This document shows, in pieces, positions 34,978 to 46,763 of a DNA stretch of 64,000 bases; position 1 is the first letter of the stretch; each line of letters begins with the position of its first letter. The DNA comes from Streptomyces sp. NRRL F-5727 (GTDB lineage: Bacteria > Actinomycetota > Actinomycetes > Streptomycetales > Streptomycetaceae). The notes below the pieces were generated by a model. That model made no database searches. It saw only the letters and a program-made list of their open reading frames with translations, and was not told the DNA's origin. The DNA is taken from NCBI RefSeq assembly GCF_000719555.1, contig NZ_JOGX01000017.1, positions 1 through 64,000 of the forward strand, read 5' to 3'. Position numbers and translations under genes: made by a program.

Positions 34978-35790
34978 TCAGGCGGTCAGCACCCGCCGCT
35001 CCCCCGCCTCCACGGCGATGTCCAGCGTGTTCCCGGGCGGCGGGAACGGGCAGATGAAGTGGTCCACGAAGGCGCACGGCGGCAGCAGCGCGCGGTTGAG
35101 GTCCACCGTCACCGAGCCGTCCTCCGCCGGCGCCGGCGGGCGCAGGAAGCGGAAGCGGAAGGTGGACCGCCCACTGGTGGCGTCCGCGAAGACCGCCCAC
35201 AGCGTGCCGTCGTCCTCCACCGCCACCTGGAGCGCGTGCACCCGCCCGTCGAGCTCGAAGACCAGCTCGCCGGAGAGCCCGAGCCCGCGCTCCCTGCCGT
35301 CCGCGTTCCGCACCCGGACGCTGCGCGCCTCCTCGTACGGCCGGTAGATCCCCGCCACCACCCAGCGCGGGTCGTACGGTGTCGCCTCGATGCCCCGGAA
35401 GGCCCGCCGCGCCGCCGAACCGGGGTCGAAGTCCCGTACCGCCCACAGCCCTTCGCGGTGCAGCACCATGATCCGGCGGCCCGCCGCCTCGACCCGGGAC
35501 TCGTGGATCGGCGCGTGGTCGGCGCCGAGCCGGACGGTGCCCGCGAAGGGCTTGCCGTCGACGGTGAGCCCGTCCTCGGCCACCGCCGTCAGGACCACCG
35601 CGTCGCCGTCCTCGCGCCACTCCCCCGGCAGGTCCGGCAGCCGGCCGTCGGGGAAGTCCGCGAGCCAGTGGGTGCCGGTGAGGGAGAGCGGGCCGTACGA
35701 GGAGGCCACCGCCGCCTCGCGCTGCTCGTGCCAGTGCCGCCACTCCCCGGCGGCGTCGGTGGTGTCGGTGCTGCTCGTGGGGTCGCTCAT
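34978..35790 (-). CDS. DUF1684 family protein
   Basis: The 270-residue soluble protein follows the DUF1684 pattern: WRHWHEQREAAVASSYGPLSLTGTHWL at the start, the middle FDPGSAARRAFRGIEATPYDPRW, and the close VDLNRALLPPCAFVDHFICPFPPPGNTL, which holds conserved Asn, Pro, Cys and His residues. The family's biochemical role is not established; the conserved residues suggest an enzyme or ligand-binding fold. It is the last gene of the operon that begins at 43574 and overlaps the monooxygenase stop (ATGA), so it probably acts on a product of the monooxygenases. Confidence 0.87.
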   Translation of the reverse strand: MSDPTSSTDTTDAAGEWRHWHEQREAAVASSYGPLSLTGTHWLADFPDGRLPDLPGEWREDGDAVVLTAVAEDGLTVDGKPFAGTVRLGADHAPIHESRVEAAGRRIMVLHREGLWAVRDFDPGSAARRAFRGIEATPYDPRWVVAGIYRPYEEARSVRVRNADGRERGLGLSGELVFELDGRVHALQVAVEDDGTLWAVFADATSGRSTFRFRFLRPPAPAEDGSVTVDLNRALLPPCAFVDHFICPFPPPGNTLDIAVEAGERRVLTA

Positions 35791-37106
35791 GGTGTTCCAC
35801 CCTTCCACACCGGCGCCGGAAGCCCGAGGTGCGACCGGAGCGTCGTGCCCGTGTACTCCGTACGGAAGACCCCGCGCTCCTGGAGCAGCGGCACCACCCG
35901 GTCGACGAAGTCGTCCAGGCCGCCCGGGGTGAGGTGCGGGATCAGGATGAAGCCGTCGGCGGCGTCCGTCGCCACGTGCTCCGCCAGGGCGGCGGCGACC
36001 GACTCCGGGGTGCCGACGAAGGAGTGCCGGGCGGTGGCCTCGATGACCGTCTCCCGGAGCGAGAGCCCCTTGGCCTCGGACAGCGCCCGCCAGCGGGCCG
36101 CCACCGCGAACGGGTCGGCGATCCGCACCCGGCCCTGGACCAGCGTCGACTCCGGGTCCGGGTCGACGTCCGGGAGCGGCCCGTCCGGGTCGTGGGAGGA
36201 CAGGTCCCGGCCCCAGACCTGCTCCGCGGCGAGCAGGGCGTTCTGCGGGGAGATCTGCTGCCGGCTGACCAGCGCGGCCTTCTCCCGCGCCTCGGCCTCG
36301 GTGTCGCCGAGGACGTAGGTGACCCCCGGCATGATCTTCAGGTCCTCCGGCCGCCGCCCGTACCGGGCGAGCCGCCGCTTGACGTCGGCGTGGAAGGCCC
36401 GCCCGGCCTCCGGGGTGGAGTGCCGGGAGAAGACCACGTCGGCGGCGGAGGCGGCGAACTCCCGCCCCTCGTCCGAGTCGCCGGCCTGGATGACGACCGG
36501 ATGCCCCTGCGGGGGCCGCTCCACCGTGACCTCGCCCTCGATCCGGAAGTGCGTGCCCGCGTGCGCGAAGCGGCGCCGCTCGCCGCCCCCGGGCCAGGAG
36601 TCCCACAGCTCGCGGACGGTGGCGACCGCCTCGGCGGCCCGGGTGTACCGGTCGGCCCGGTCCAGGAAGCCGCCGCGCCGGAAGTTCTCGCCGGTGAAGG
36701 CGTCCGAGGAGGTGACCACGTTCCAGGCGGCCCGGCCGCCGCTGAGGTGGTCCAGGGAGGCGAGCCGGCGGGCCAGCTCGTAGGGCTCGTTGAAGGTGGC
36801 GCTGACCGTGGCGGCCAGGCCGAGCCGGTCGGTGACGGCGGCGAGCGCGTTGAGGACGGTGATCGACTCGGGGCGGCCGACCACGTCGAGGTCGTGGATG
36901 CGGCCGCCGTACTCGCGCAGCCGCAGCCCCTCGGCGAGGAAGAAGAAGTCGAAGAGCCCCCGCTCGGCGGTCCGCGCGAGGTGCTCGAAGGAGGAGAAGT
37001 CGATCTGCGAGCCGGAGCGCGGATCGGACCACACGGTGGTGGAGTTGACGCCGGGGAAGTGCGCGGCGAGGTGGATCTGCTTCCTGGCCGGCCGGGACTC
37101 GGTCAC
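35787..37106 (-). CDS. FMN-dependent monooxygenase, NtaA/SnaA/DszA family (LLM class)
   Basis: The 439-residue protein has the family hallmarks: KQIHLAAHFPGVNSTTVW at the N-terminus, FEHLARTAERGLFDFFFLAEG, then LDHLSGGRAAWNVVTS and QAGDSDEGREFAA. Members use reduced FMN and oxygen to cleave C-N or C-S bonds in chelators, sulfones or sulfonates. GTG 37106 overlaps the upstream monooxygenase stop (GTGA). No flavin reductase is in the operon, so reduced flavin must come from elsewhere. Because the operon also encodes amino-acid-type importers and faces a cysteine-type leader ORF, an organosulfur substrate is inferred. Confidence 0.9.
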   Translation of the reverse strand: MTESRPARKQIHLAAHFPGVNSTTVWSDPRSGSQIDFSSFEHLARTAERGLFDFFFLAEGLRLREYGGRIHDLDVVGRPESITVLNALAAVTDRLGLAATVSATFNEPYELARRLASLDHLSGGRAAWNVVTSSDAFTGENFRRGGFLDRADRYTRAAEAVATVRELWDSWPGGGERRRFAHAGTHFRIEGEVTVERPPQGHPVVIQAGDSDEGREFAASAADVVFSRHSTPEAGRAFHADVKRRLARYGRRPEDLKIMPGVTYVLGDTEAEAREKAALVSRQQISPQNALLAAEQVWGRDLSSHDPDGPLPDVDPDPESTLVQGRVRIADPFAVAARWRALSEAKGLSLRETVIEATARHSFVGTPESVAAALAEHVATDAADGFILIPHLTPGGLDDFVDRVVPLLQERGVFRTEYTGTTLRSHLGLPAPVWKGGTP

Positions 37107-38119
37107 GCGTCGGCTCCCTTCGGTGCGTACTGGCTGGCGGGCCGCGGCAGCCCGAGGCGGTCGCGGAGGGTGGTGCCCTCGTAGGCGGTACGGAACAGGC
37201 CCCGGTCCCGCAGCGCGCCGGCCGTCTCCGCGGCGAACCGGGGCAGGTCGCGCCCGGGGACGGCGGGCACGAGGTGGAGGCCGTCGACGGCGCCGCCGCC
37301 GTGCCAGTCGGCGGCCTGCCGGGCCAGCGCGGCCGGCCCGCCCGGGTGGGCGTCGAGGTCGGCGGTGACGGTCAGCAGCACCCGCAGCAGCCCCGGGTCG
37401 CGGCCGTGCGCCCGGGCGGACCGGTGGAGTTCGGCCCGGAGCGCGGCCGCCTCCTCGGGCGAGGAGGCCCGGATCAGCGCCACGTCGGCGTGGCGGGCGG
37501 CGGTCTCCCGGGCGGCGGGGCGGGTGGCGTCGACCACCACGACCGGGTTGCCCTGCGGCGGGCGGGGCACGATCGAGGGGCCCTTGACGGAGAAGGTGGC
37601 GCCCTCGAAGCCGACGTGGTGCAGCTTGCGGCGGTCGATGAAGCGGCCGGTGGCCACGTCCCGTATCTCCGCGTCGTCCTCCCAGCTGTCCCACAGCAGC
37701 CGGGACACCTCGGCGGTCTCGCTCGCCTCCTGCCAGAGCGCGGCGGTCGGCGGGGCCGGCCGGCGGCCGAAGAGCCGGGCCTCGGCCTCGCCGGGCGAGA
37801 CGGCGATCCGCCAGCCGGCCCGGCCCCGGCTCACCCAGTCGAGGGTGGCGACCGCGGCCTGGACGTGGAAGGGCTCGGTGTGGGTGGTGGTGACGGTCGG
37901 CACCAGGCCGACGGAGCGGGTCTCGGGCGCGATCCGGGCGAGCACGGCGAGCGCGTCGAGCCCCGGCCGGGCGAAGGAGTCGTCGTGGGTGAGGAAGTCG
38001 AGCCCGGCGTCCTCGGCGAGCCGGGCGAGCGCCACGGTGTCGGCGAGGGTCCGTGACCCCCCGTCGGGGGGCGCGGGGGCGAGCTCGGCGGCCAGATGGA
38101 GCGGTCGTACTCCGGTCAT
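37103..38119 (-). CDS. LLM class flavin-dependent monooxygenase
   Basis: The 338-residue TIM-barrel protein shows bacterial-luciferase-family features: LARLAEDAGLDFLTHDDSF, LVPTVTTTHTEPFHVQAAVATLDWVSRGRAGWRIAVSPG and PQGNPVVVVDATRPAARETAARHADVA. It is shorter than and clearly different from the next gene's product, so the operon supplies two distinct oxygenases. It lies 52 bp after the solute-binding protein gene and overlaps the second monooxygenase. Either FMN or F420 could be the cofactor; sequence alone does not settle this. Confidence 0.87.
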   Translation of the reverse strand: MTGVRPLHLAAELAPAPPDGGSRTLADTVALARLAEDAGLDFLTHDDSFARPGLDALAVLARIAPETRSVGLVPTVTTTHTEPFHVQAAVATLDWVSRGRAGWRIAVSPGEAEARLFGRRPAPPTAALWQEASETAEVSRLLWDSWEDDAEIRDVATGRFIDRRKLHHVGFEGATFSVKGPSIVPRPPQGNPVVVVDATRPAARETAARHADVALIRASSPEEAAALRAELHRSARAHGRDPGLLRVLLTVTADLDAHPGGPAALARQAADWHGGGAVDGLHLVPAVPGRDLPRFAAETAGALRDRGLFRTAYEGTTLRDRLGLPRPASQYAPKGADA

Positions 38120-38171
38120 GCGGGGTCCTCGATGCGGTGGTGGCGGTGGTGGTGGCGTCGGTGACGGGCGG

Positions 38172-39143
38172 TCAGCCGGCGGTCCGGGGCAGGCCCGGCG
38201 GGTTGATCTCGGACTTCTGCACGGCCTCGGAGGACAGCCCCCAGCGGTCCAGGACCTTCGCGTAGCTGCCGTTCGCGATGACGTGGTCGAGCGCGGCGGC
38301 GTACGCCTCGACGAGGCCGCTGCCCTTCTTCGTGGTGGCGGCGATCTTGCCCTGGAGCCCGGCGCCCGCCCCGGAGAACGTCCCGGCCACCTCGGTCTGC
38401 CCGGCGGCGGCCACATGGTGGGCGACGGACGGGTTGGGGCCCAGATAGCCGTCGATGCGGCCGGACTGGAGGGCGAGGTAGTAGTCGGTGGGGTTCTGGA
38501 AGTACACGATGTCGACGCCCGCCCGGCCGGCCTGCTCGTTCTCCTTCGACCAGTCGACGAGGATCTTCTCCTGGTTGGTGCCGGAGCCGACCGCGATCTT
38601 CTTCCCCGCCACGTCCGCCGGGCCCTTCACGGTCCAGCCGGAGCCCTTCTTCGCCTCGAAGGCGAGGTCGTCACGGCGGTAGGTGGCGAAGTCGTACTTG
38701 TCCTTGCGCTCCTCGGTCACCGTGACGTTGGAGAAGACGGCGTCGAACTTGCCGCTGTCGAGGCCGACGAAGAGGTTCTCCCAGGAGACCGCCTGGAAGT
38801 CCGGCTTCAGCCCGAGGGTGTCGGCGACCAGGGTGGCGAGGTCGGTCTCGACACCGATGAGGGTCTTGTCGTCGGTGGCGTAGAAGTTGAGCGGCGGCTG
38901 CCCGCCGGCGCTCACCCCGATGACGAGGGTGCCTCTCGCCCGGACGGCCTCGGGCACCTTGGCGGCGGCGGCGTCGGCCTTGCCGGTGCGGATCCGGTTC
39001 TGGTCCGGGCCGAGGTTCACGCCCCGGCCCTGCTTCCCCTCCGGCTTGATCTCGGTGGCGGGGTCGCCGGTGCCGCAGGCGGTGAGGGCCCCGAGGGCGG
39101 TGAGCGCGACGACGGCGGCGAGCAGGTGACGGCGGGTACGCAT
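38172..39143 (-). CDS. ABC transporter solute-binding lipoprotein, polar amino acid type
   Basis: The 323-residue product has a lipoprotein signal with lipobox LTACG. The mature protein is a type II binding protein: RGTLVIGVSAGGQPPLNFYATDDKTLIGVETDLATLVADTLGL, then FDAVFSNVTVTEERKDKYDFATY, GKKIAVGSGTNQEKIL and a final DHVIANGSYAKVLDRWGL. These mark amino-acid or opine-type ligands, including cystine in other systems. The ATG follows AAGGAG. It sits between the ATPase and monooxygenase genes of the operon. Confidence 0.9.
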   Translation of the reverse strand: MRTRRHLLAAVVALTALGALTACGTGDPATEIKPEGKQGRGVNLGPDQNRIRTGKADAAAAKVPEAVRARGTLVIGVSAGGQPPLNFYATDDKTLIGVETDLATLVADTLGLKPDFQAVSWENLFVGLDSGKFDAVFSNVTVTEERKDKYDFATYRRDDLAFEAKKGSGWTVKGPADVAGKKIAVGSGTNQEKILVDWSKENEQAGRAGVDIVYFQNPTDYYLALQSGRIDGYLGPNPSVAHHVAAAGQTEVAGTFSGAGAGLQGKIAATTKKGSGLVEAYAAALDHVIANGSYAKVLDRWGLSSEAVQKSEINPPGLPRTAG

Positions 39144-39174
39144 GACGGACTCCTTGGGTGCTGGGGGGAAAGGG

Positions 39175-39963
39175 TCAGAGGACCTTGGAGAGGAAGGCGC
39201 GGGTGCGCTCGTGCGCGGGGTTGTCGAGGACCTCGGCGGGGGTGCCCCGCTCGACGATCCGGCCCTCGTCCATGAAGACGACGGTGTCGGCGACCTCGCG
39301 GGCGAAGCCGATCTCATGGGTGACGACGATCATGGTGGTGCCGGCGGCGGCGAGGTCCCGGATGACGTCGAGGACCTCCCCGACCAGCTCGGGGTCGAGC
39401 GCCGAGGTCGGCTCGTCGAAGAGGAGCAGGCCCGGTTCGAGGGCGAGCGCGCGGGCGATGGCGACCCGCTGCTGCTGCCCGCCGGAGAGCTGCCGGGGGT
39501 ACGCCTCCGCCTTGTCGGCGAGCCCGACCCGGGCGAGCAGCTTCCGGGCCGCCTCCTCGGCCGCCCGGCGGGGGCGGCCGAGCGCGGAGACCGGCGCCTC
39601 GGTGATGTTCTCCAGCACGGTGAGGTGCGGGAAGAGGTGGAAGTTCTGGAAGACGAAGCCGATGGCGGTGCGCTGCCGCAGGATCTCCCGCTCGCGCAGC
39701 TCGTACAGCCTGTTCCCGGAGCGGCGGTAGCCGACGAGGACGCCGTCGACGCTGACCGAGCCGCCGTCCACCTTCTCCAGGTGGTTGATGGTGCGCAGCA
39801 GCGTGGACTTGCCCGAGCCGGACGGACCGAGGACGACGGCGACCTCGCCGTGGGCGACGTCGAGGTCGACGCCGCGCAGGACCTCGGTGGTGCCGAAGCT
39901 CTTGCGGACGCCGCGGAGTTCGACCTTGGGGGCGGCGGCGGGCGGGGCGGTGCGGGTGCTCAT
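39175..39963 (-). CDS. ABC importer ATPase, polar amino acid type (GlnQ-like)
   Basis: The 262-residue ATPase has Walker A GPSGSGKST, Q-loop VFQNFHLFPHLTVLEN, signature LSGGQQQRVAIARAL, Walker B LLLFDEPTSALDPE and switch His in VVTHEIGFAREVAD. The sequence is typical of amino-acid importers. It is the only ATPase in a locus with two permease genes, so it probably energises both. Start ATG 39963 overlaps the stop of permease 1 (ATGA). Confidence 0.94.
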   Translation of the reverse strand: MSTRTAPPAAAPKVELRGVRKSFGTTEVLRGVDLDVAHGEVAVVLGPSGSGKSTLLRTINHLEKVDGGSVSVDGVLVGYRRSGNRLYELREREILRQRTAIGFVFQNFHLFPHLTVLENITEAPVSALGRPRRAAEEAARKLLARVGLADKAEAYPRQLSGGQQQRVAIARALALEPGLLLFDEPTSALDPELVGEVLDVIRDLAAAGTTMIVVTHEIGFAREVADTVVFMDEGRIVERGTPAEVLDNPAHERTRAFLSKVL

Positions 39964-40847
39964 CGGGTGCTCCCCTTGGCGTAGTGGCGTTCGACGTAGT
40001 GCTGGACGACGGAGAGCGCGGTGGTCAGCAGCACGTACCAGACGGTGGCGACCATCAGCAGGGGCACCACCCGGCCGGTGCGGCCATAGACGACCTGGAC
40101 CTGGTAGAAGAGCTCGCCGATGGCCATGACGGAGACGATCGAGGTGCCCTTGAAGAGCGAGACGATCTCGTTGGCGGCGTTGGGCAGGATGGACCGCATG
40201 GCCTGCGGCAGCACGATCCGGCGCAGCCGGCGCAGCCGCGGGATGCCCAGGGAGGCGGCGGCCTCCAGCTGTCCCGGGTCGACGGCGAGGATCCCGCCGC
40301 GGACGATCTCGGCGGCGTAGGCGGCCTGGTGGAGGGCGAGGCCGAGGACGGCCGCGCTCATGGCGCCGACCAGGCCCACGGTGTCGAAGGAGTAGAAGCC
40401 GGGCCCGAACGGGATGCCGATGCTCAGCTCCTCGTACAGGTAGGCGAGGTTGAACCAGAAGAGGAGCTGGACGATGAGCGGGATGGAGCGGAAGGCCCAG
40501 ACGTAGCCGAAGGCGACGGCCCGCAGGAAGGGGCTGTCCGAGAGGCGCATGAAGGCGAGCACCACGCCGAGGGCGAAGCCGAGCACGGTGCCGTGGAAGG
40601 TCAGCTGGAGGGTGACCCAGACGGCGCGGAGGATCGCGTCGGTGGCGAAGTACCGGGCGAAGACGTCCCATTCCCAGCCGGGGTTGGTGACGAGGCCGTG
40701 GCCGAACTGGACGAGCACGACGGCGGTGGCGGCGACGGCGGCCCAGCGCCAGGGGCGGCGGACGGGGACGACGGTCAGGGCGGTGCCGTCGTCGCCGGGC
40801 GGAGGGGGCGCGGTCTTCTCGACCGGTGGGTCACTGGTGAGGGCCAT
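39960..40847 (-). CDS. ABC importer permease 1, polar amino acid (HisM/ArtQ) type
   Basis: The 295-residue protein has a Pro-rich cytoplasmic N-terminus, a first span (RWAAVAATAVVLVQFGHGLV), and the His/Glu/Gln-type permease core: AFRSIPLIVQLLFWFNLAYLY and the EAA loop EAAASLGIPRLRRLRRIVLPQAMRSILPN. It is similar to permease 2 (42699-43574), so the two may pair as a heterodimer. Its start lies 17 bases inside the FAD protein gene, which implies coupled translation. Confidence 0.92.
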   Translation of the reverse strand: MALTSDPPVEKTAPPPPGDDGTALTVVPVRRPWRWAAVAATAVVLVQFGHGLVTNPGWEWDVFARYFATDAILRAVWVTLQLTFHGTVLGFALGVVLAFMRLSDSPFLRAVAFGYVWAFRSIPLIVQLLFWFNLAYLYEELSIGIPFGPGFYSFDTVGLVGAMSAAVLGLALHQAAYAAEIVRGGILAVDPGQLEAAASLGIPRLRRLRRIVLPQAMRSILPNAANEIVSLFKGTSIVSVMAIGELFYQVQVVYGRTGRVVPLLMVATVWYVLLTTALSVVQHYVERHYAKGSTR

Positions 40848-42702
40848 GGTGTTCCTCGGTCCTTCGCTGGGGGGCGGGTACGGGCACGAGCGTGCGGGCG
40901 GGGGCGGCCGGGCGGCGGGCGTGGTCCCGCAGGAAAGCGAGCGCGGCGCGGGCGGCGGCGTCGTTCTGCGCGAAGGCGAGCCCGCCGGTCCTGGGCCGGG
41001 TGAAGCCGCCGCCGGCGCGGGCGGTGGTGTGCGGGCCGAGGGCGATCCGGCGCGGGTGCGGGCGGCCGTCCCGCTGGAGGATCCGCCCGTCGGCGGGGTC
41101 GACGGCGAGCAGCCCGCCGGGGGTGGCGCGGGCGCCGTCCTCGTACAGGCCGCGCAGCAGCGGGCTGGCGGTGCCGGTGACGGTGGGGGCGGGCAGCCGG
41201 GCCTCGACGAGGGCGCGGGCCTCGGTGACCGCGCCGGGCACGGCGGGCGAGGAGGCCCGGAAGACGCCGTGCCGTTCGTCGGCCTCGACGGTGAGGCGCG
41301 GGCCGAGGAAGCGGACGGTGCCGGCCTCGGAGAGGGCGAGCAGCCGGCGCAGCCGGGGGCCGGGCGGGCCGGAGGCGAGGTAGCTGAAGAAGCCGTGCCA
41401 CCAGCCGTCGGTGTCGATCCGGTCGCCGAGCCGCACGAGCTGCCCGTAGACGGAGAGGACGGCGGCGAAGACGGCGGCGTCGGGGCTGTGGGCGGGGTCG
41501 TGGCGGCGCCGCAGGTCGGCGGTGACGTAGTCGCGCAGCACGTCCTGGAGGGCGTCGGCGTCGGGGACGCGGAGGCCGTCGAGGGGGTGGTCGAGGGCGT
41601 CGGGGTCGAAGCGGTCGGCCGGGTCGGGGACGGCGGCGGCGACGAGTCCGGCGAGGTCGTGGGCGCCCGGTCCGCCGGGCGCGGCGGCGGCCCAGGCGGC
41701 GGCGAAGCCGGCCCAGTCACCGGTGGTGCGTTCGGGGTGGGCGGTGAAGAGGCGGTGGTAGTGGGCCCAGCCGAGCTCGTGGGAGACGTGCGGCCACACG
41801 TCGCGCCGGAAGTCGAGCGGCCCGTCCCGGCCGAGCAGGGCGGCGACCCGGTCGGGGCCGAAGAAGCGGGGCAGCGGGGGCCGTTCGCCGTCGAGGGCGT
41901 AGCCGAGCTTGGAGTGGTACGGGACGCCCCGGCGGGAGCCGACGTACAGCACCGGCTCCTTCCCGGAGGGCACGTAGACGGGCGCGTCCGCGGTCCCCTC
42001 GTAGCGGCCGCCGCGGCCCTCGGTGAGCAGCACCATCAGGTCGACGAAGGCGAGGCCGAAGCCCCGGACGAGGACGGGCTCGCCGGCCGGGAGGGCGGAC
42101 AGGTCGAGGTCGGCGGTGTGGCCGGGCGGCACGTGGACGAGGCCGTGGCGCTCGGCGAAGCCGGCCAGTTCCCGCTGTTCGGCGTCGGGTTCGGCGTCGA
42201 GGTGGCCGAGGGTGAGGACGACGAGGTCGGCGGGGAGCGGGGCGGCGCGGTCGGCGAGCCACACCCGCTGCCGGCCCTCCCGGGGGCCGTCCACCCGCAG
42301 GGCGGTGGTGCGGTGTTCGTGGAGGGTGACGGTGGCGGGCAGCGCGTCCCTGGCCCGTTCGTACGCCCAGCGCAGATAGGCGCCCTGCTCGGGGCGGGGG
42401 GCGAAGCGGCGGCCGTCCGTGCCGGACCACGCGGCGAGGGTGGGCCCGGGGCGGACCGGTCCTTCGAGGCGCACGGTGTCGTCGGTGAAGACGGTGACGT
42501 CCTCGGCCATCGAGTTCATCCAGAGCAGCGGGGACTGGGCGGTGCGCCAGATCCGGCCGGGGCCGGGCGGGTACGGGTCGACCAGGTGGAGGTCGAGCGG
42601 CCGGTCGCCGTACAGCTCGGGCAGGGCGGCGGCGAGCCGCTCCAGGAAGCCGGTGCCGCGCGGTCCGGCGCCGACGATCACCAGCGAGGCGGTGCCGCTC
42701 AT
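40831..42702 (-). CDS. FAD/NAD(P)-binding protein (NAD_binding_9 type)
   Basis: The 623-residue protein begins with a Rossmann motif (LVIVGAGPRGTGFLERLA) and continues with LVDPYPPGPGRIWRTAQSPLLWMNSMAEDVTVF, characteristic of the FAD-NAD(P)-binding family seen in MSMEG- and HI-type hypothetical proteins. Other sites are LTLGHLDAEP and FGLAFVDLMVLLTEGRGG, and a C-terminal part near GGLAFAQNDAAARAAL. It probably oxidises or hydroxylates a small molecule. It sits between the two permease genes and overlaps both (4 and 17 bases), so its product works with import. Substrate unknown. It could also feed reduced flavin to the monooxygenases; that is speculation. Confidence 0.85.
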   Translation of the reverse strand: MSGTASLVIVGAGPRGTGFLERLAAALPELYGDRPLDLHLVDPYPPGPGRIWRTAQSPLLWMNSMAEDVTVFTDDTVRLEGPVRPGPTLAAWSGTDGRRFAPRPEQGAYLRWAYERARDALPATVTLHEHRTTALRVDGPREGRQRVWLADRAAPLPADLVVLTLGHLDAEPDAEQRELAGFAERHGLVHVPPGHTADLDLSALPAGEPVLVRGFGLAFVDLMVLLTEGRGGRYEGTADAPVYVPSGKEPVLYVGSRRGVPYHSKLGYALDGERPPLPRFFGPDRVAALLGRDGPLDFRRDVWPHVSHELGWAHYHRLFTAHPERTTGDWAGFAAAWAAAAPGGPGAHDLAGLVAAAVPDPADRFDPDALDHPLDGLRVPDADALQDVLRDYVTADLRRRHDPAHSPDAAVFAAVLSVYGQLVRLGDRIDTDGWWHGFFSYLASGPPGPRLRRLLALSEAGTVRFLGPRLTVEADERHGVFRASSPAVPGAVTEARALVEARLPAPTVTGTASPLLRGLYEDGARATPGGLLAVDPADGRILQRDGRPHPRRIALGPHTTARAGGGFTRPRTGGLAFAQNDAAARAALAFLRDHARRPAAPARTLVPVPAPQRRTEEHHGPHQ

Positions 42703-43574
42703 CGGCCGGTCCCGGTGCCGCGCGCGTACCGCTTCTCCACGTAGTGCTGGCCGACGCCGAGGACGGAGGTGACGGCGACGTACCAGAGGGTGGCGACCAG
42801 GAGGAGCGGGATGACCTCGTAGGTGCGGTGGTAGACGAGCTGGGTGGAGTAGAGCAGGTCCTGCACGGCGATGACGGAGACGATCGAGGTGCCCTTGAGG
42901 GTGCCGATGAGCATGTTCCCGGCGGGCGGGACGATGGCGCGCATGGCCTGCGGGAGCACGATCCGGGTGAAGCGCCGGCGGCGGCCGAGGCCGAGCGCCT
43001 GGGCGGCCTCGATCTGGCCGCGGTCGACGGAGAGGATGCCGCCGCGCACCACTTCGGCGGCGTAGGCGGCCTCGTGGAGGGTGAGGCCGAGGACGGCGAC
43101 GGCGACCGGGCCGAGGAGGTCGACGGTGGAGACGCCGAGGATCCTCGGGTAGAGCATCCCGATGTTGAACCAGAAGAGCAGCTGGACCAGGATCGGGGTG
43201 GAGCGGAAGAACCAGACGTAGCCCCAGGCGACCGCGCGCAGCACCGGGTTGGCGGAGAGCCGCAGGGCGGCCAGCAGGGTGCCGAGGGCGAAGCCGAGGA
43301 CCATGACGGCGGCGGTCAGCCACAGGGTGAGGCCGAGGCCGCGCAGCACGGACGCCGAGGTGAAGTAGCGGGCGACGACGTCCCATTGGAAGGCGTCGTT
43401 GCGGACGACCGAGACGAGGCCGAGGCCGAGCAGGACGAGGACGACGGCGGCGGCGGTCCACTGGCCGGTCCTGCGGGCGGGGACGACGACCGGGGCGGCC
43501 GGATCGGTCTTCGCCGGGGCGGCGGCCGGTTTCGGGCCGGGGGCTTCGAGGGTGTCGAGGGGTACGGAAGACAT
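42699..43574 (-). CDS. ABC importer permease 2, polar amino acid type
   Basis: The 291-residue protein is first in the operon. It has the same organisation as permease 1: a cytoplasmic N-terminus rich in Pro/Ala, a first span (WTAAAVVLVLLGLGLVSVV), FFRSTPILVQLLFWFNIGMLY and the EAA loop EAAQALGLGRRRRFTRIVLPQAM. The end (LGVGQHYVEKRYARG) parallels permease 1 (LSVVQHYVERHYAKG). Start ATG 43574 has GGAGCC upstream; the frame is open to 43634. Confidence 0.92.
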   Translation of the reverse strand: MSSVPLDTLEAPGPKPAAAPAKTDPAAPVVVPARRTGQWTAAAVVLVLLGLGLVSVVRNDAFQWDVVARYFTSASVLRGLGLTLWLTAAVMVLGFALGTLLAALRLSANPVLRAVAWGYVWFFRSTPILVQLLFWFNIGMLYPRILGVSTVDLLGPVAVAVLGLTLHEAAYAAEVVRGGILSVDRGQIEAAQALGLGRRRRFTRIVLPQAMRAIVPPAGNMLIGTLKGTSIVSVIAVQDLLYSTQLVYHRTYEVIPLLLVATLWYVAVTSVLGVGQHYVEKRYARGTGTGR

Positions 43575-43683
43575 GCGAAGGCTCCGTGACTGCCAGAGGC
43601 GGCGGGTCGTTCGGGAGTGCGCCTTCACACGCACGGCGATGGAGAACGCGGGCCGGGCCCCTCAGCCCGGTGTCCGCCCTGTG

Positions 43684-43714
43684 AGGCTACGGGGCGATGG
43701 CGCGCGGCTGTCAA
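43684..43714 (-). promoter_or_regulatory. Promoter of the monooxygenase/ABC operon
   Basis: On the minus strand, TTGACA (43714-43709) is followed after 19 bp by TAGCCT (43689-43684). It would give a leader of about 100 nt before ATG 43574, containing a CCGGGC/GCCCGG hairpin. Spacing is 1-2 bp longer than ideal. Confidence 0.5.
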
Positions 43715-43762
43715 GTCCGTCCGCGATGCGGGCGGTTGAGTGAGGCGTACGTCTCCTACCGG

Positions 43763-43791
43763 TTGACTGGGGAACGGATGCCTGTTCCACT
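43763..43791 (+). promoter_or_regulatory. Leaderless promoter of the Cys-type leader ORF
   Basis: TTGACT (43763-43768), 17 bp, then TCCACT (43786-43791), with the ATG 6 bases later. An inverted repeat GGAAC-N8-GTTCC (43771-43788) lies between the boxes and may bind a regulator. Confidence 0.55.
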
Positions 43792-43797
43792 GAGGCC

Positions 43798-43866
43798 ATG
43801 CATCCGCAGCAGCTCGTCACGCGCTCCCACATCGACCTCGGTCGTGTGTGGTCCTCTTCCTGTTGA
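43798..43866 (+). CDS. 22-residue leader peptide ending in Cys (sulfur-type leader ORF)
   Basis: This small ORF is below normal gene-calling size. It reads MHPQQLVT, then RSHIDLGRV, and ends WSSSC directly before TGA. The R-[ST]-H-[IV]-D-L-x-R-V core with terminal Cys is the hallmark of a family of putative leader peptides found upstream of sulfur-assimilation and transport genes in Streptomyces, as I recall them. Related polycysteine leader ORFs act as cysteine-responsive attenuators in mycobacteria. The ATG is 6 bases from a -10 box, so it should be leaderless. Weak hairpins follow at 43887-43902 and 43908-43927, before the GNAT start. Slow translation of the final Cys codon when cysteine is scarce could control downstream expression. 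Confidence 0.8.
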   Translation: MHPQQLVTRSHIDLGRVWSSSC

Positions 43867-43994
43867 GCCGTCCCGCTGCGTTTCCCCAGGTCGTCGTACC
43901 TGTCCTCCGGCGCTTTCGCTGACGCCGTCCCCCGCGCCTTCACGCACCCCTCCCCTCGCCCCGCCCTGTCTCTCCTCCCGCCCGAGGCCGACGC

Positions 43995-44492
43995 ATGTCC
44001 TTTCCGCCCGGTCGGGTGTCCGCGCTCTCGCTGCGCGCGACGACGCCCGACGATCCGCTGGCGCGCCCGCTCCTCGACGAGCTGGCGCACGAGTACCTGA
44101 CCCGCTACGGCGACTCCTCCGACCTGACCCGTTTCCCGGCCGGGGAGTTCGCCCCGCCGCACGGCACGTTCCTGCTCCTCCTCGACGGGGACGCGGCCGT
44201 CGCCGGCGGCGCGTACCGCCGCCACGGCCCCGGCACCGCCGAACTGAAACGGATCTGGACCCACTCGGCGCACCGCCGGCGCGGGCTGGCCCGCCGGGTG
44301 CTCGCCGCGCTCGAAGCCGACGCCGCCGCCCGCGGCTACACCCGCGTGTACCTCACCACCGGTCCGCGCCAGCCGGAGGCCAGGGGCCTCTACCTGGCGA
44401 CCGGCTACCGTCCGCTCTTCGACGTCACCGCCGATCCCGAGTCGATCGGTCCGCTGCCGTTCGAGAAACACCTGGAGACCCCGGAGTCATGA
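43995..44492 (+). CDS. GNAT N-acetyltransferase
   Basis: The 165-residue single-domain acetyltransferase has ELKRIWTHSAHRRRGLARRVLAALEADAAARG (motif A with RRxGLA) and LTTGPRQPEARGLYLATGYRP (motif B). It follows the Cys leader ORF by 128 bp and overlaps the solute-binding protein gene (ATGA). In other bacteria N-acetyltransferases are coupled to cystine or S-alkyl-cysteine import and protect or tag the imported thiol amino acid; this is offered here as inference. A weak ribosome site (GAGG) precedes ATG 43995. Confidence 0.88.
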   Translation: MSFPPGRVSALSLRATTPDDPLARPLLDELAHEYLTRYGDSSDLTRFPAGEFAPPHGTFLLLLDGDAAVAGGAYRRHGPGTAELKRIWTHSAHRRRGLARRVLAALEADAAARGYTRVYLTTGPRQPEARGLYLATGYRPLFDVTADPESIGPLPFEKHLETPES

Positions 44493-45439
44493 GCACCCAC
44501 AGGCGTACCCGTACCACCGCCCTCGTCCTGACCGCCGCCACGGCGCTGGCACTCACCGCCTGCTCCGGCGGCGATCCCGCGGCGACCGACCCGGCCGGAG
44601 CGGCGCGGGACGCGCTGCCCACGCAGGACGTGGTGGCGGCGGTCGGCCGGAACGAGGCGGCGGTGCGGCTGCTGCCCGCGGAGGTCCGCGAGCGGGGCAC
44701 GCTGACGCTCGCCGCCTCGGTCGGCACCCCGCCCAGCTCGGCGTACCTCCCCGACGGGAAGACCGTCGTCGGCCTGGACGCCGACTTCGCGGCCGCCGTC
44801 GCGCGGGCGCTCGGTCTGGAACTGAAGCGCGAGGCGGCCGGGTTCGAGGTGATCCTGCCGGCGCTGGGCAGCGGGAAGTACGACGTCGGCACCGGCAACT
44901 TCGGGGTCACCGAGGAGCGCCGGAAGACGATCGACTTCGTGACCTACATCAACGACGGGCAGGGCTTCGCGGTCCGCGCGGACAGTCCGCTGAAGTCGGT
45001 CACCGATCTGACGCAGCTGTGCGGGCTGAAGGTGGCGACCGGCGCCGGCACCACCTTCGAGCAGACCCTGGAGAAGAACCGGGGGCGCTGCGCGGCGGCG
45101 GGGAAGGAGCCGTACGAGGTGAACGTCTTCAACGAGGGCGGGGCGCCCTGGCTGGCGCTCCGGCAGGGCCGCAGCGACGTGGTGATGAGCACCATCAACG
45201 GCATCCGGTACGCGGTGGACCGGCAGCCCGGCACGCGCTTCCTCAACGAGTACCGGCGGCTCGACGTCGGCTTCGCCTTCAGGAAGGGGTCCGCGCTGAC
45301 GCCCGCCTTCCGGGCGGCGGTGAACGGGCTGAAGGCGGACGGCACCTACGACCGGATCCTGCGGAAGTGGGGGGTGACCGCCTCGGGCATCGCCGAGTCG
45401 CGGATCTCCCCGCCGGAGCTGCCCGCCCCGGCGAGGTGA
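44489..45439 (+). CDS. Second ABC solute-binding lipoprotein, polar amino acid type
   Basis: The 316-residue product has lipobox LTACSGG. Its mature sequence resembles the binding protein at 38172: RERGTLTLAASVGTPPSSAYLPDGKTVVGLDADFAAAVARALGL, then NFGVTEERRKTIDFVTY and GLKVATGAGTTFEQTL, ending GTYDRILRKWGV. Two mature Cys residues (QLCGLKV and GRCAAAGK) may form a disulfide. No permease or ATPase gene accompanies it, so it probably docks on the importer encoded by the divergent operon, widening its ligand range. It is co-translated with the GNAT gene. Confidence 0.9.
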   Translation: MSTHRRTRTTALVLTAATALALTACSGGDPAATDPAGAARDALPTQDVVAAVGRNEAAVRLLPAEVRERGTLTLAASVGTPPSSAYLPDGKTVVGLDADFAAAVARALGLELKREAAGFEVILPALGSGKYDVGTGNFGVTEERRKTIDFVTYINDGQGFAVRADSPLKSVTDLTQLCGLKVATGAGTTFEQTLEKNRGRCAAAGKEPYEVNVFNEGGAPWLALRQGRSDVVMSTINGIRYAVDRQPGTRFLNEYRRLDVGFAFRKGSALTPAFRAAVNGLKADGTYDRILRKWGVTASGIAESRISPPELPAPAR

Positions 45440-45455: not shown

Positions 45456-46763
45456 TCAGCAGCTGCAGTCGCAGCCGCAGCCGTCGCAGCAGCCGCAGCC
45501 GTCCTCTCCGCAGCAGTTGGAGCAGCACTCGCAGCCGTCGCAGCAGCTGCCGCAGTCGCACTGCTGGCACAGGCCGTCCTTGCGCTCCCGGCTCCACGGG
45601 TCCTCGTAGCTGCCGCAGCACATCTGGCACGTGCAGGCGAGGCCGGCCCAGACCGCGCAACCGGCGATCAGGCCGCGCCGGTTGCGGTGCGGCGGGCCGG
45701 GCGGGAAGCCGCCGCCGCCCCCGCCGCCGCCCGGTCCGGGGTTCCAGGGCCCGCCCGGTCCGGCGGGACCGCCGGGGCCGGGGGCGTACGGGGTGCCGGG
45801 GCCGTAAGGGCTGCCGGTCCCGGGGCCGTTCGGCGCGTAGGGGTTGCCGGGCACCGGGCCGTGGGCGCCCGCCGGGGCGCCGCCGCCGACGTGGGAGCAG
45901 GTCGTGGTGCCGAAGGCGCGGTCGACCGAGACCCGCAGTTCGTGCGCGAGGAGCTGGTGGACGAGCTTGTGGTCGGTGAACTCGGCGTCGCGCAGCGCCA
46001 GCCGGATGCCGTGCAGGGCGTCGTCGGCGAGCCGGCGGGCCTCCTCGCGGGAGGTGCCGGTGGCGGTGAGCGGGTTCCAGGCGCCGGCCTCGGCGTCGGC
46101 GGCCTGGTCCTCGACGGCGTCGAGGAGGTGGGCGAGGCGGCCGAAGAGCCGGCCCGCCTCGGCGAGCGGTTCGGCGTTCCCGGGCCGGCCGGCGAGGAGC
46201 GCGGTGTGGGCGAAGGCGGCGGCGGTGGCGGTCTCGGTGGGTTCGGTGACGACGAGGAGCGGGGTGCCGGGGCCGGCGAGGGACTCGATGCCGGTCTGGC
46301 GGTCCACGGCGTCGACGAGCACGGCGGTGTCGAAGCCGACCGCGTGGCCCGCCCGGGCGCCGGCCCTGTCCCAGGAGCGGGCGACCCGGCGGGCCGCGGC
46401 GGCGACCGGCCGGCGGGCCAGCAGGCCGTCCCGGTCGGCGACGTGGTCGCGCACCTTGGCCGAGGCGAGGACGAGCGAGACGGCGGCGGCGAGCCGGGCG
46501 CCCTCGCCGCGGGCGACGGGCGCGGTGCGCATCGCGCGCAGCGGGCAGGGGCCCGCGGTGCGCCGGCCGGTCTCCGTGACGCCGGTCTGAGCCTCCGTCA
46601 GGACCGAGACGATGAGCCCGTCGTAGTTGGTCACGACCCGGGCGAACTGGCCGTGGTCGGCACGCAGGGCCAGACACAGTCCGCACAGGTGCGCCATCCA
46701 CTGGGTCTTCAGGTGGTCGGTGAGCCGATGGGTGCAGGGCCTGACTATTCCGAACAATTCCAT
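45456..46763 (-). CDS. DUF5685 protein with a cysteine-rich C-terminal tail
   Basis: The 435-residue protein has an all-helical N-terminal domain of about 300 residues starting MELFGIVRPCTHRLTDHLKTQWMAHLCGLCLALR, with FDTAVLVDAVDRQ and an acidic AEAGAWNPL region, matching DUF5685 as I remember it. A low-complexity Gly/Pro/Asn/Tyr linker follows. The last 59 residues (45459-45635) hold 21 Cys, arranged as CTC, CC, CDC, CC, CECC and similar groups, which should bind metal or form clustered disulfides. No signal peptide is present. Older annotations call relatives putative regulators; the function is not established. Start ATG 46763 follows GGGGG. Confidence 0.82.
   Translation of the reverse strand: MELFGIVRPCTHRLTDHLKTQWMAHLCGLCLALRADHGQFARVVTNYDGLIVSVLTEAQTGVTETGRRTAGPCPLRAMRTAPVARGEGARLAAAVSLVLASAKVRDHVADRDGLLARRPVAAAARRVARSWDRAGARAGHAVGFDTAVLVDAVDRQTGIESLAGPGTPLLVVTEPTETATAAAFAHTALLAGRPGNAEPLAEAGRLFGRLAHLLDAVEDQAADAEAGAWNPLTATGTSREEARRLADDALHGIRLALRDAEFTDHKLVHQLLAHELRVSVDRAFGTTTCSHVGGGAPAGAHGPVPGNPYAPNGPGTGSPYGPGTPYAPGPGGPAGPGGPWNPGPGGGGGGGGFPPGPPHRNRRGLIAGCAVWAGLACTCQMCCGSYEDPWSRERKDGLCQQCDCGSCCDGCECCSNCCGEDGCGCCDGCGCDCSC

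Follow-up and report, generated by a model that had tools for sequence, protein, structure and literature searches.

Streptomyces sp. NRRL F-5727 has a genome of 7.95 Mb, and the window analysed here is a stretch of 64,000 nucleotides (nt) that forms part of its contig C17. The window contains a divergent locus of ten genes and a short leader open reading frame (ORF) of the cysteine type. Eight packed genes on the minus strand, encoding two permeases, a flavin adenine dinucleotide (FAD) protein, an ATPase, a binding protein (SBP1), two luciferase-like monooxygenases (LLM1 and LLM2) and a DUF1684 protein, diverge from a plus arm that consists of the leader, a GNAT acetyltransferase and a second binding protein (SBP2). 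An earlier sequence-only reading of this DNA had described the same arrangement, and all of its parts could be confirmed: an ORF and translation check located the ten genes and the leader ORF where they had been placed, and the Pfam assignments agree with the gene names (Table 1). The locus is probably a Streptomyces variant of S-substituted-cysteine salvage, whose substrate and chemistry we infer.

Table 1. Genes and control elements of the divergent locus, with the minus-strand genes in transcription order.
Feature	Position in window	Strand	Basis or remark
Permease 1	42699-43574	minus	PF00528; first gene in transcription order
FAD protein, class-B flavin monooxygenase, kin of L-aspartate N-hydroxylase	40831-42702	minus	8CP2/8CP5 match
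Permease 2	39960-40847	minus	PF00528
ATPase, common to both importer modules	39175-39963	minus	best NCBIfam model TcyN
Binding protein 1 (SBP1), family 3	38172-39143	minus	PF00497
LLM2, probable non-catalytic partner subunit	37103-38119	minus	flavin-site residues changed, lid-sized stretch missing
LLM1, NtaA/DmoA-type monooxygenase, predicted catalytic	35787-37106	minus	TIGR03860
DUF1684 protein with Cx7C (C239, C247)	34978-35790	minus	PF07920
Probable minus-operon promoter	TTGACA 43714-43709, 19 nt, TAGCCT 43689-43684	minus	read from sequence
Probable leader promoter	TTGACT 43763-43768, 17 nt, TCCACT 43786-43791	plus	read from sequence
Cysteine-type leader, small ORF of 22 aa, MHPQQLVTRSHIDLGRVWSSSC	43798-43866	plus	leader core
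C-rich, G-poor spacer, possible Rho-loading tract	43867-43994	plus	C-G skew 0.40
GNAT acetyltransferase	43995-44492	plus	PF00583
Binding protein 2 (SBP2), family 3	44489-45439	plus	PF00497

A search with the FAD protein in a species-level genome collection gave 167 encoding loci, and the best 80 of these, referred to as named loci, were analysed. They come from Streptomyces, Kitasatospora and Actinacidiphila, together with one labelled Microtetraspora glauca. Neighbour genes are common to the named loci with long enough flanks, where they form clusters of 65-78 members, and the leader core HID[FL]GRVWS.SC is found in 75 of the 80 (not in L011, L013, L032, L038 and L061). The view that the arrangement is more than chance is thereby borne out. 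Co-occurrence was counted in 67 named loci, 13 having been dropped for a short flank or, in the case of L067, for want of a FAD gene call. The most frequent neighbours are LLM2 (60 loci), LLM1 (55), DUF1684 (50) and the ATPase (45), followed by permease 1 (38), SBP2 (37), permease 2 and SBP1 (34 each) and GNAT (10); L071 has no LLM1 gene call in this count, yet an LLM1 fragment was found there by tblastn. The gene calls were made by our own script, so start positions may be off, and since species and loci are related the counts are not independent events. The locus labelled M. glauca NRRL B-3735 (L027) carries all ten genes in the same order at 90-96% identity to those of the window, and its label may be misassigned.

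FAD relatives were also counted more widely. Of 297 genomes drawn separately from the family, 218 carry such a relative at E 1e-60 or better, distant paralogues included, and in a class sample the figure is 32 of 296 at E 1e-70. Among 12 further FAD neighbourhoods (10 outside the family and 2 own-genus paralogues), an LLM1 relative lies near the FAD gene in L234, L235, L236 and L238, three of which also carry SsuD-like, GNAT, ABC or DUF1684-like genes. The other eight have no LLM1 relative nearby.

Neighbouring genes of the minus-strand octet overlap or sit at most 52 nt apart, with gaps of -4, -17, -4, +31, +52, -4 and -4 nt in transcription order. Of 74 named loci, 46 carry a TTGAC-N16..20-TAnnnT pattern on the minus-operon side, compared with 4 of 1480 shuffles. 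A plain sigma-70 scan of positions 43560-44000, which permits a spacing of 16-18 nt only, returned no site; it missed the minus-operon promoter and did not detect the leader promoter.

The two LLM proteins differ in their fit to known families. LLM1 scores 395.3 bits against TIGR03860 (NtaA/DmoA), over the cut-off of 279.7, and LLM2 falls below it. The closest solved chain to LLM1 is YtnJ of Bacillus subtilis, which we take to be CmoJ, and DszA is also among the LLM1 matches. LLM2 matches the NtfO1 chain 7E36_A from end to end (rank sixth by score), and NtfO2 ranks fifth for LLM1. For the NtfO1-NtfO2 heterodimer, docking of FMN into NtfO2 is reported, with the site backed by mutants, and NtfO1 is described as having no lid (PMC8027225). 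We therefore used the seven NtfO2 residues identified by docking and mutagenesis (PMC8027225) as a test of the flavin site. LLM1 keeps six of the seven, Arg replacing H151, and LLM2 keeps one and is missing a lid-sized stretch. Wherever LLM1 was called, LLM2 stands beside it (55/55 loci), and of 58 called pairs 32 overlap by 4 nt. Five loci have an LLM2 but no LLM1 gene call, and their LLM2 is just 38-48% identical to that of the window. The simplest reading of these sequences is that LLM1 and LLM2 probably form one heterodimeric enzyme, in which LLM1 is catalytic and LLM2 non-catalytic. Of the two LLM monooxygenases proposed earlier, LLM1 is thus retained as a predicted catalyst and LLM2, with six of seven flavin-site residues lost, is probably not a second enzyme.

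The FAD protein matches PF13454 and has no match among the NCBIfam models. One solved relative was found, the L-aspartate N-hydroxylase 8CP2/8CP5 (E 9e-90, residues 6-589), with ≈39% identity over 569 aligned positions and with N62 and the FAD/NADPH motifs kept. This enzyme is described as a class-B monooxygenase in which N62 lies over the flavin and the aspartate is held by R13, R276, R416, R577 and N413 (PMC10404684). We aligned 75 near and 14 distant relatives of the FAD protein, and all 89 retain N62. R577 is retained in 75/75 near and 12/14 distant relatives, and R13 in 73/75 (two gaps) and 8/14, whereas R276, N413 and R416 are altered in every near (75/75) and every distant (14/14) relative. 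Because N62 is kept and three aspartate contacts are altered, the FAD protein is by homology a class-B oxygenase, with a pocket predicted no longer to suit aspartate. The FAD protein is fused to DUF1684 in L013 and L038, and to an LLM in L126.

The sole solved FAD relative being an N-hydroxylase, and two of its five aspartate contacts (R13 and R577) being retained in near relatives, the locus might instead carry out nitrogen chemistry: the FAD protein would N-hydroxylate an imported amino acid, and the LLM pair would oxidise or cleave the product to yield nitrogen or a metabolite. NtaA-type LLMs are indeed able to split C-N bonds. We nevertheless consider such a role unlikely, as the leader is of the cysteine type and occurs alongside SsuD-like, SsuE and thioredoxin genes (see below), and as the enzyme nearest to LLM1 cleaves C-S bonds.

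C239 and C247, which form the Cx7C motif of the DUF1684 protein, are invariant in 30/30 DUF1684 sequences. Because it carries a Cx7C motif, a Haloferax DUF1684 protein has been assigned to a thiol-relay group (PMC9426492). The predicted structure (predicted local distance difference test score, pLDDT, 91.5) matches DUF1684 entries, one of them with mercury, and nothing else convincing.

The importer genes fall into two modules. Among the 67 loci, SBP1 and permease 2 are inseparable (34/34), and SBP2 accompanies permease 1 in 37 of the 38 permease-1 loci; SBP2 never occurs without permease 1, which occurs once without SBP2. The modules do part company, with SBP2 lacking permease 2 in 11 loci and permease 2 lacking SBP2 in 8. 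As each pair is also found without the other, the two-permease layout can be taken as a pair of separable amino-acid-type ATP-binding cassette (ABC) importers, SBP1 with permease 2 and SBP2 with permease 1, that share one ATPase and whose ligands we infer. Since SBP2 lies on the plus arm and permease 1 on the minus arm, the neighbourhood comparison also upholds the earlier claim that the two arms belong together. The best NCBIfam model for the ATPase is TcyN (319.9 bits, under the cut-off of 406), and cystine-transport models rank first or second for the ATPase, the permeases and SBP1, every score being under its cut-off. The components are of the polar-amino-acid type, not of the SsuA/TauA type.

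These cystine-transport matches could also be accommodated by plain, cysteine-controlled import of cystine or cysteine, the oxygenases then serving a separate redox or detoxification task, such as S-conjugate removal, and not nutrition, and the transport modules are in fact lost or kept independently of the LLM pair. That the enzymes and importers are clustered together in 46 of 67 loci, and that the leader precedes both, makes this improbable in our view.

The earlier reading had suggested that the imported compound is possibly N-acetylated. GNAT is present in just 10 of the 67 loci of the window type, which argues against N-acetylation as a core function, though a related locus type often carries the gene. 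In that second type (L102, L107, L121-L123 and L125-L127), the leader is followed in most cases by an SsuD-like LLM, GNAT, SBP2, permease 2, the ATPase and SBP1, with permease 1 divergent.

The leader itself is a small ORF (sORF) with unusual conservation. Among 74 distinct leader sequences the codons CAC, ATC, GAC, GTG, TGG and TGT are constant and GGT varies once, while all four third bases are used in the Arg codon of the core. Constant codons around a variable Arg third base point to a translated frame under additional constraint at the nucleotide level. The nearest NCBIfam model, NF042936, gives 22.5 bits, under its cut-off of 45. TTGAC is found at -68, -69 or -65 from the leader core in 74/74 named loci, and as the leader ATG in the window lies only 6 nt past the TCCACT element, the sORF is probably leaderless. 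Conservation decays within ≈15 nt past the stop codon. In the 120 nt that follow the stop, C exceeds G in all 84 copies of the survey described below, and the window spacer has a C-G skew of 0.40 against a window background with a mean of -0.06 (sd 0.15). No terminator-like site was seen in this spacer. Leaderless cysteine-rich sORFs are described as cysteine-responsive attenuators in mycobacteria (Canestrari 2020 as described in PMC9094748; PMC4633059), and, in actinobacteria, candidate cys leader peptides that lack obvious terminators were proposed in 2005, with Rho mentioned as a possibility (PMC1262725).

A survey of 101 family genomes gave leader matches in 64, with 84 copies, and one hit in the reversed control. 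The first co-directional gene is an SsuD-like LLM in 28 copies (a label given by a BLAST threshold against a single reference), DUF4395 with thioredoxin in 10, LLM2-LLM1 in 7, SBP2 in 7, DUF1684 in 5, GNAT in 4 and SsuE in 1, and 19 copies have none. In three more it is a presumably SepF-like gene, a class kept apart as the next gene lies at 475 nt or more. Many of the surveyed loci span 3 kb, which truncates the operons after their first genes. The SsuE proteins of L102 and L108 score over the curated cut-off and the SsuD-like protein of L102 under it. The DUF4395-type copies (L118, L144, L171, L181, L185, L188, L190, L192, L194 and L195) have a thioredoxin-like gene next in 9 of 10 cases; DUF4395 was assigned by Pfam in L118 only and by BLAST match to L118 in the other nine, eight of which also have a thioredoxin match. 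From its sequence matches, the DUF4395-thioredoxin pair appears to add a thiol-redox function to the genes found behind the leader. A Cys is found among the last six residues in 81 of the 84 copies. In L186, L187 and L191, where the leader precedes DUF1684, it ends in SHRR without Cys, and the sensor residue seems lost.

In another set, the leader occurs somewhere in the genome in 40 of 42 carriers of the FAD gene, as opposed to 5 of 20 genomes that lack the gene. The genome of strain NRRL F-5727 has four other short leader-type ORFs: three precede an ssu operon, a nitrite/sulfite-reductase-family gene and a sulfatase-family gene, and the fourth has an Rrf2 regulator and an SfnB/DszC-like gene next to it. 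SsuA and Rrf2 score over curated cut-offs, and the other family scores are under theirs, one protein being cut by the locus end. These four leaders, together with the copies before LLM2-LLM1, DUF1684, SsuE and DUF4395-thioredoxin, substantiate the proposed tie between this leader type and sulfur or thiol genes. The ssu operon (L215, G000:C34:8-4018) looks complete, with SsuC, SsuB, SsuA and SsuD types. Scavenging of sulfonates or sulfones of the Ssu or Dsz kind, which a leader common to SsuD-like and SsuE genes and the DszA match of LLM1 might suggest, is very improbable for the window locus, given its polar-amino-acid-type importers and the separate ssu operon with a leader of its own.

Taken together, it is quite likely that the locus has a sulfur role. 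We give an even chance to the more specific proposal that it imports an S-substituted cysteine-like compound and dismantles it oxidatively for reuse of the sulfur, that is, import followed by C-S cleavage. In B. subtilis, CmoO is described as making N-acetyl-S-alkylcysteine sulfoxide, the C-S bond of which is split by CmoJ, after which the sulfenic acid undergoes reduction and deacetylation (PMC10863075). In the window, the two importers on one ATPase would bring the compound in, and the FAD protein would oxygenate it, most likely at sulfur to give a sulfoxide, which is the task of CmoO in B. subtilis. LLM1 with its non-catalytic partner LLM2 would then cleave the C-S bond with reduced flavin mononucleotide (FMNH2) and O2 in the manner of CmoJ, and the Cx7C thiols of DUF1684 would reduce the sulfenic acid. 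This order of reaction, from the flavin monooxygenase through the LLM pair to DUF1684, is tentative and somewhat doubtful. By analogy, the leaderless sORF may tell the GNAT/SBP2 arm how much cysteine is available, the probable mechanism being a pause of the ribosome with Rho-dependent termination in the C-rich tract.

N-acetyl-S-substituted cysteines (mercapturates) are a plausible substrate class. Actinomycetes produce mercapturates upon cleavage of mycothiol conjugates, and a substrate that is already N-acetylated would account for the dispensable GNAT.

Several observations weigh against the salvage proposal. The earlier idea of import of a sulfur compound with release of its sulfur is strengthened in its sulfur part, but import does not seem obligatory, as 21 of the 67 loci have neither SBP1/permease 2 nor permease 1; LLM1 is also absent from 12 and DUF1684 from 17, and the gene set as a whole is therefore not obligatory. 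The close relatives L011, L013 and L038 retain the FAD protein and DUF1684, fused in two of the three, and a search of these loci for the leader, the LLM pair and a transporter found none of them. According to Pfam, neither a deacetylase nor a flavin reductase is among the ten genes, an M20 deacetylase not having been sought in the rest of the genome. Three of the 84 leader copies end without a Cys, the leader core is missing from 7 (L128-L134) of 16 distant FAD loci within the family, and a pattern search found no leader-like ORF at any of the 12 further FAD neighbourhoods. Finally, the relatives of the FAD protein described with a known activity work on nitrogen (PMC10404684).

Leaders without an arm are the least explained part of the system. 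When 74 of the 75 leader-bearing named loci were divided, 48 had a close same-strand gene downstream of the leader and 26 did not, and sORF and promoter are as conserved in these orphans as in the 48. In 22 of the 26 orphans, DUF5685 comes next, pointing at the leader from the other strand at 128-937 nt from the leader core and encoding 17-25 Cys within the last 75 residues. As DUF5685 was also called in 38 loci with an arm gene, the pairing may be a leftover of position. The window has a DUF5685 protein too (PF18937, positions 45456-46763, minus strand), metallothionein-like in look with 22 cysteines in the last 75 residues; 17 nt separate the 3' end of its gene from the end of SBP2. It is distinctly unlikely, though conceivable, that the leader is a self-contained control unit of promoter, leaderless sORF and C-rich tract that functions without a co-directional gene. 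Scarce cysteine would then make the ribosome pause on the sORF, and antisense transcription would run into the Cys-rich tail of DUF5685, so that the cell would spend no cysteine there. Another possibility is an action in trans of the RNA or peptide of the sORF.

The analysis reveals a Streptomycetaceae gene set behind one near-invariant cysteine-type leader and offers testable roles for a class-B flavin enzyme, a DUF1684 protein and an LLM subunit that lacks a flavin site, each without an assigned function in this setting. If true, the salvage proposal would give mycothiol-making soil bacteria a route to recover cysteine from S-conjugates. The orphan copies pose the question of what role a leader has with nothing to lead.

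Several parts of the locus resemble known systems. Like NtfO1-NtfO2 and StmO1-StmO2, the LLM pair is encoded by adjoining, overlapping genes, one partner having the flavin-site residues and the lid and the other having neither; those pairs hydroxylate a polyketide, however, whereas C-S cleavage is proposed for LLM1-LLM2. The FAD protein is homologous over its full length to L-aspartate N-hydroxylase (8CP2/8CP5; FzmM, CreE) and differs from it at R276, N413 and R416. The window DUF1684 has the fold and Cx7C in common with the haloarchaeal proteins (HVO_1043; Q9HRE7, 4DLH/4FJ4), but has an extra N-terminal part and another genomic setting. As seen for the mycobacterial leaderless Cys-rich sORF attenuators, the leader has a probable leaderless start, a Cys near the end, a position 5' of sulfur genes and no conserved terminator. 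It differs from them in the one or paired Cys in a near-invariant HIDFGRVWS core, in its orphan copies and in scoring under the NF042936 cut-off.

The closest known counterpart of the whole locus is the snaA-tcyJKLMN-cmoOIJ operon of B. subtilis. That species is described as dealing with S-modified cysteines through three clusters that carry acetyltransferase, monooxygenase and deacetylase genes (PMC12757645), and TcyK is named as a binding protein and TcyN as an ATPase (PMC9239247). The window and this operon share GNAT, a cystine-type ABC system of five subunits, LLMs including one of predicted YtnJ/CmoJ type, and presumed sulfur control. We take TcyJ and TcyK to be the binding proteins and TcyL and TcyM the permeases. 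Two binding proteins and two permeases with one ATPase and a GNAT are then found in both, and the layout, which the sequence-only reading had called non-standard, has a known parallel. Control is by CymR in B. subtilis and would be by a leader sORF in the window. The window adds the FAD monooxygenase and DUF1684, and neither an M20 deacetylase nor RibR nor a redoxin is among its ten genes. CmoO, the second active LLM that carries out sulfoxidation in B. subtilis, has no evident LLM counterpart among the ten genes, as LLM2 lacks six of the seven flavin-site residues. The locus would thus function much as the S-alkylcysteine operon of B. subtilis does, but since two of the features tested, a second active LLM and M20, set it apart, we class it as a variant, rather than a member, of that operon type.

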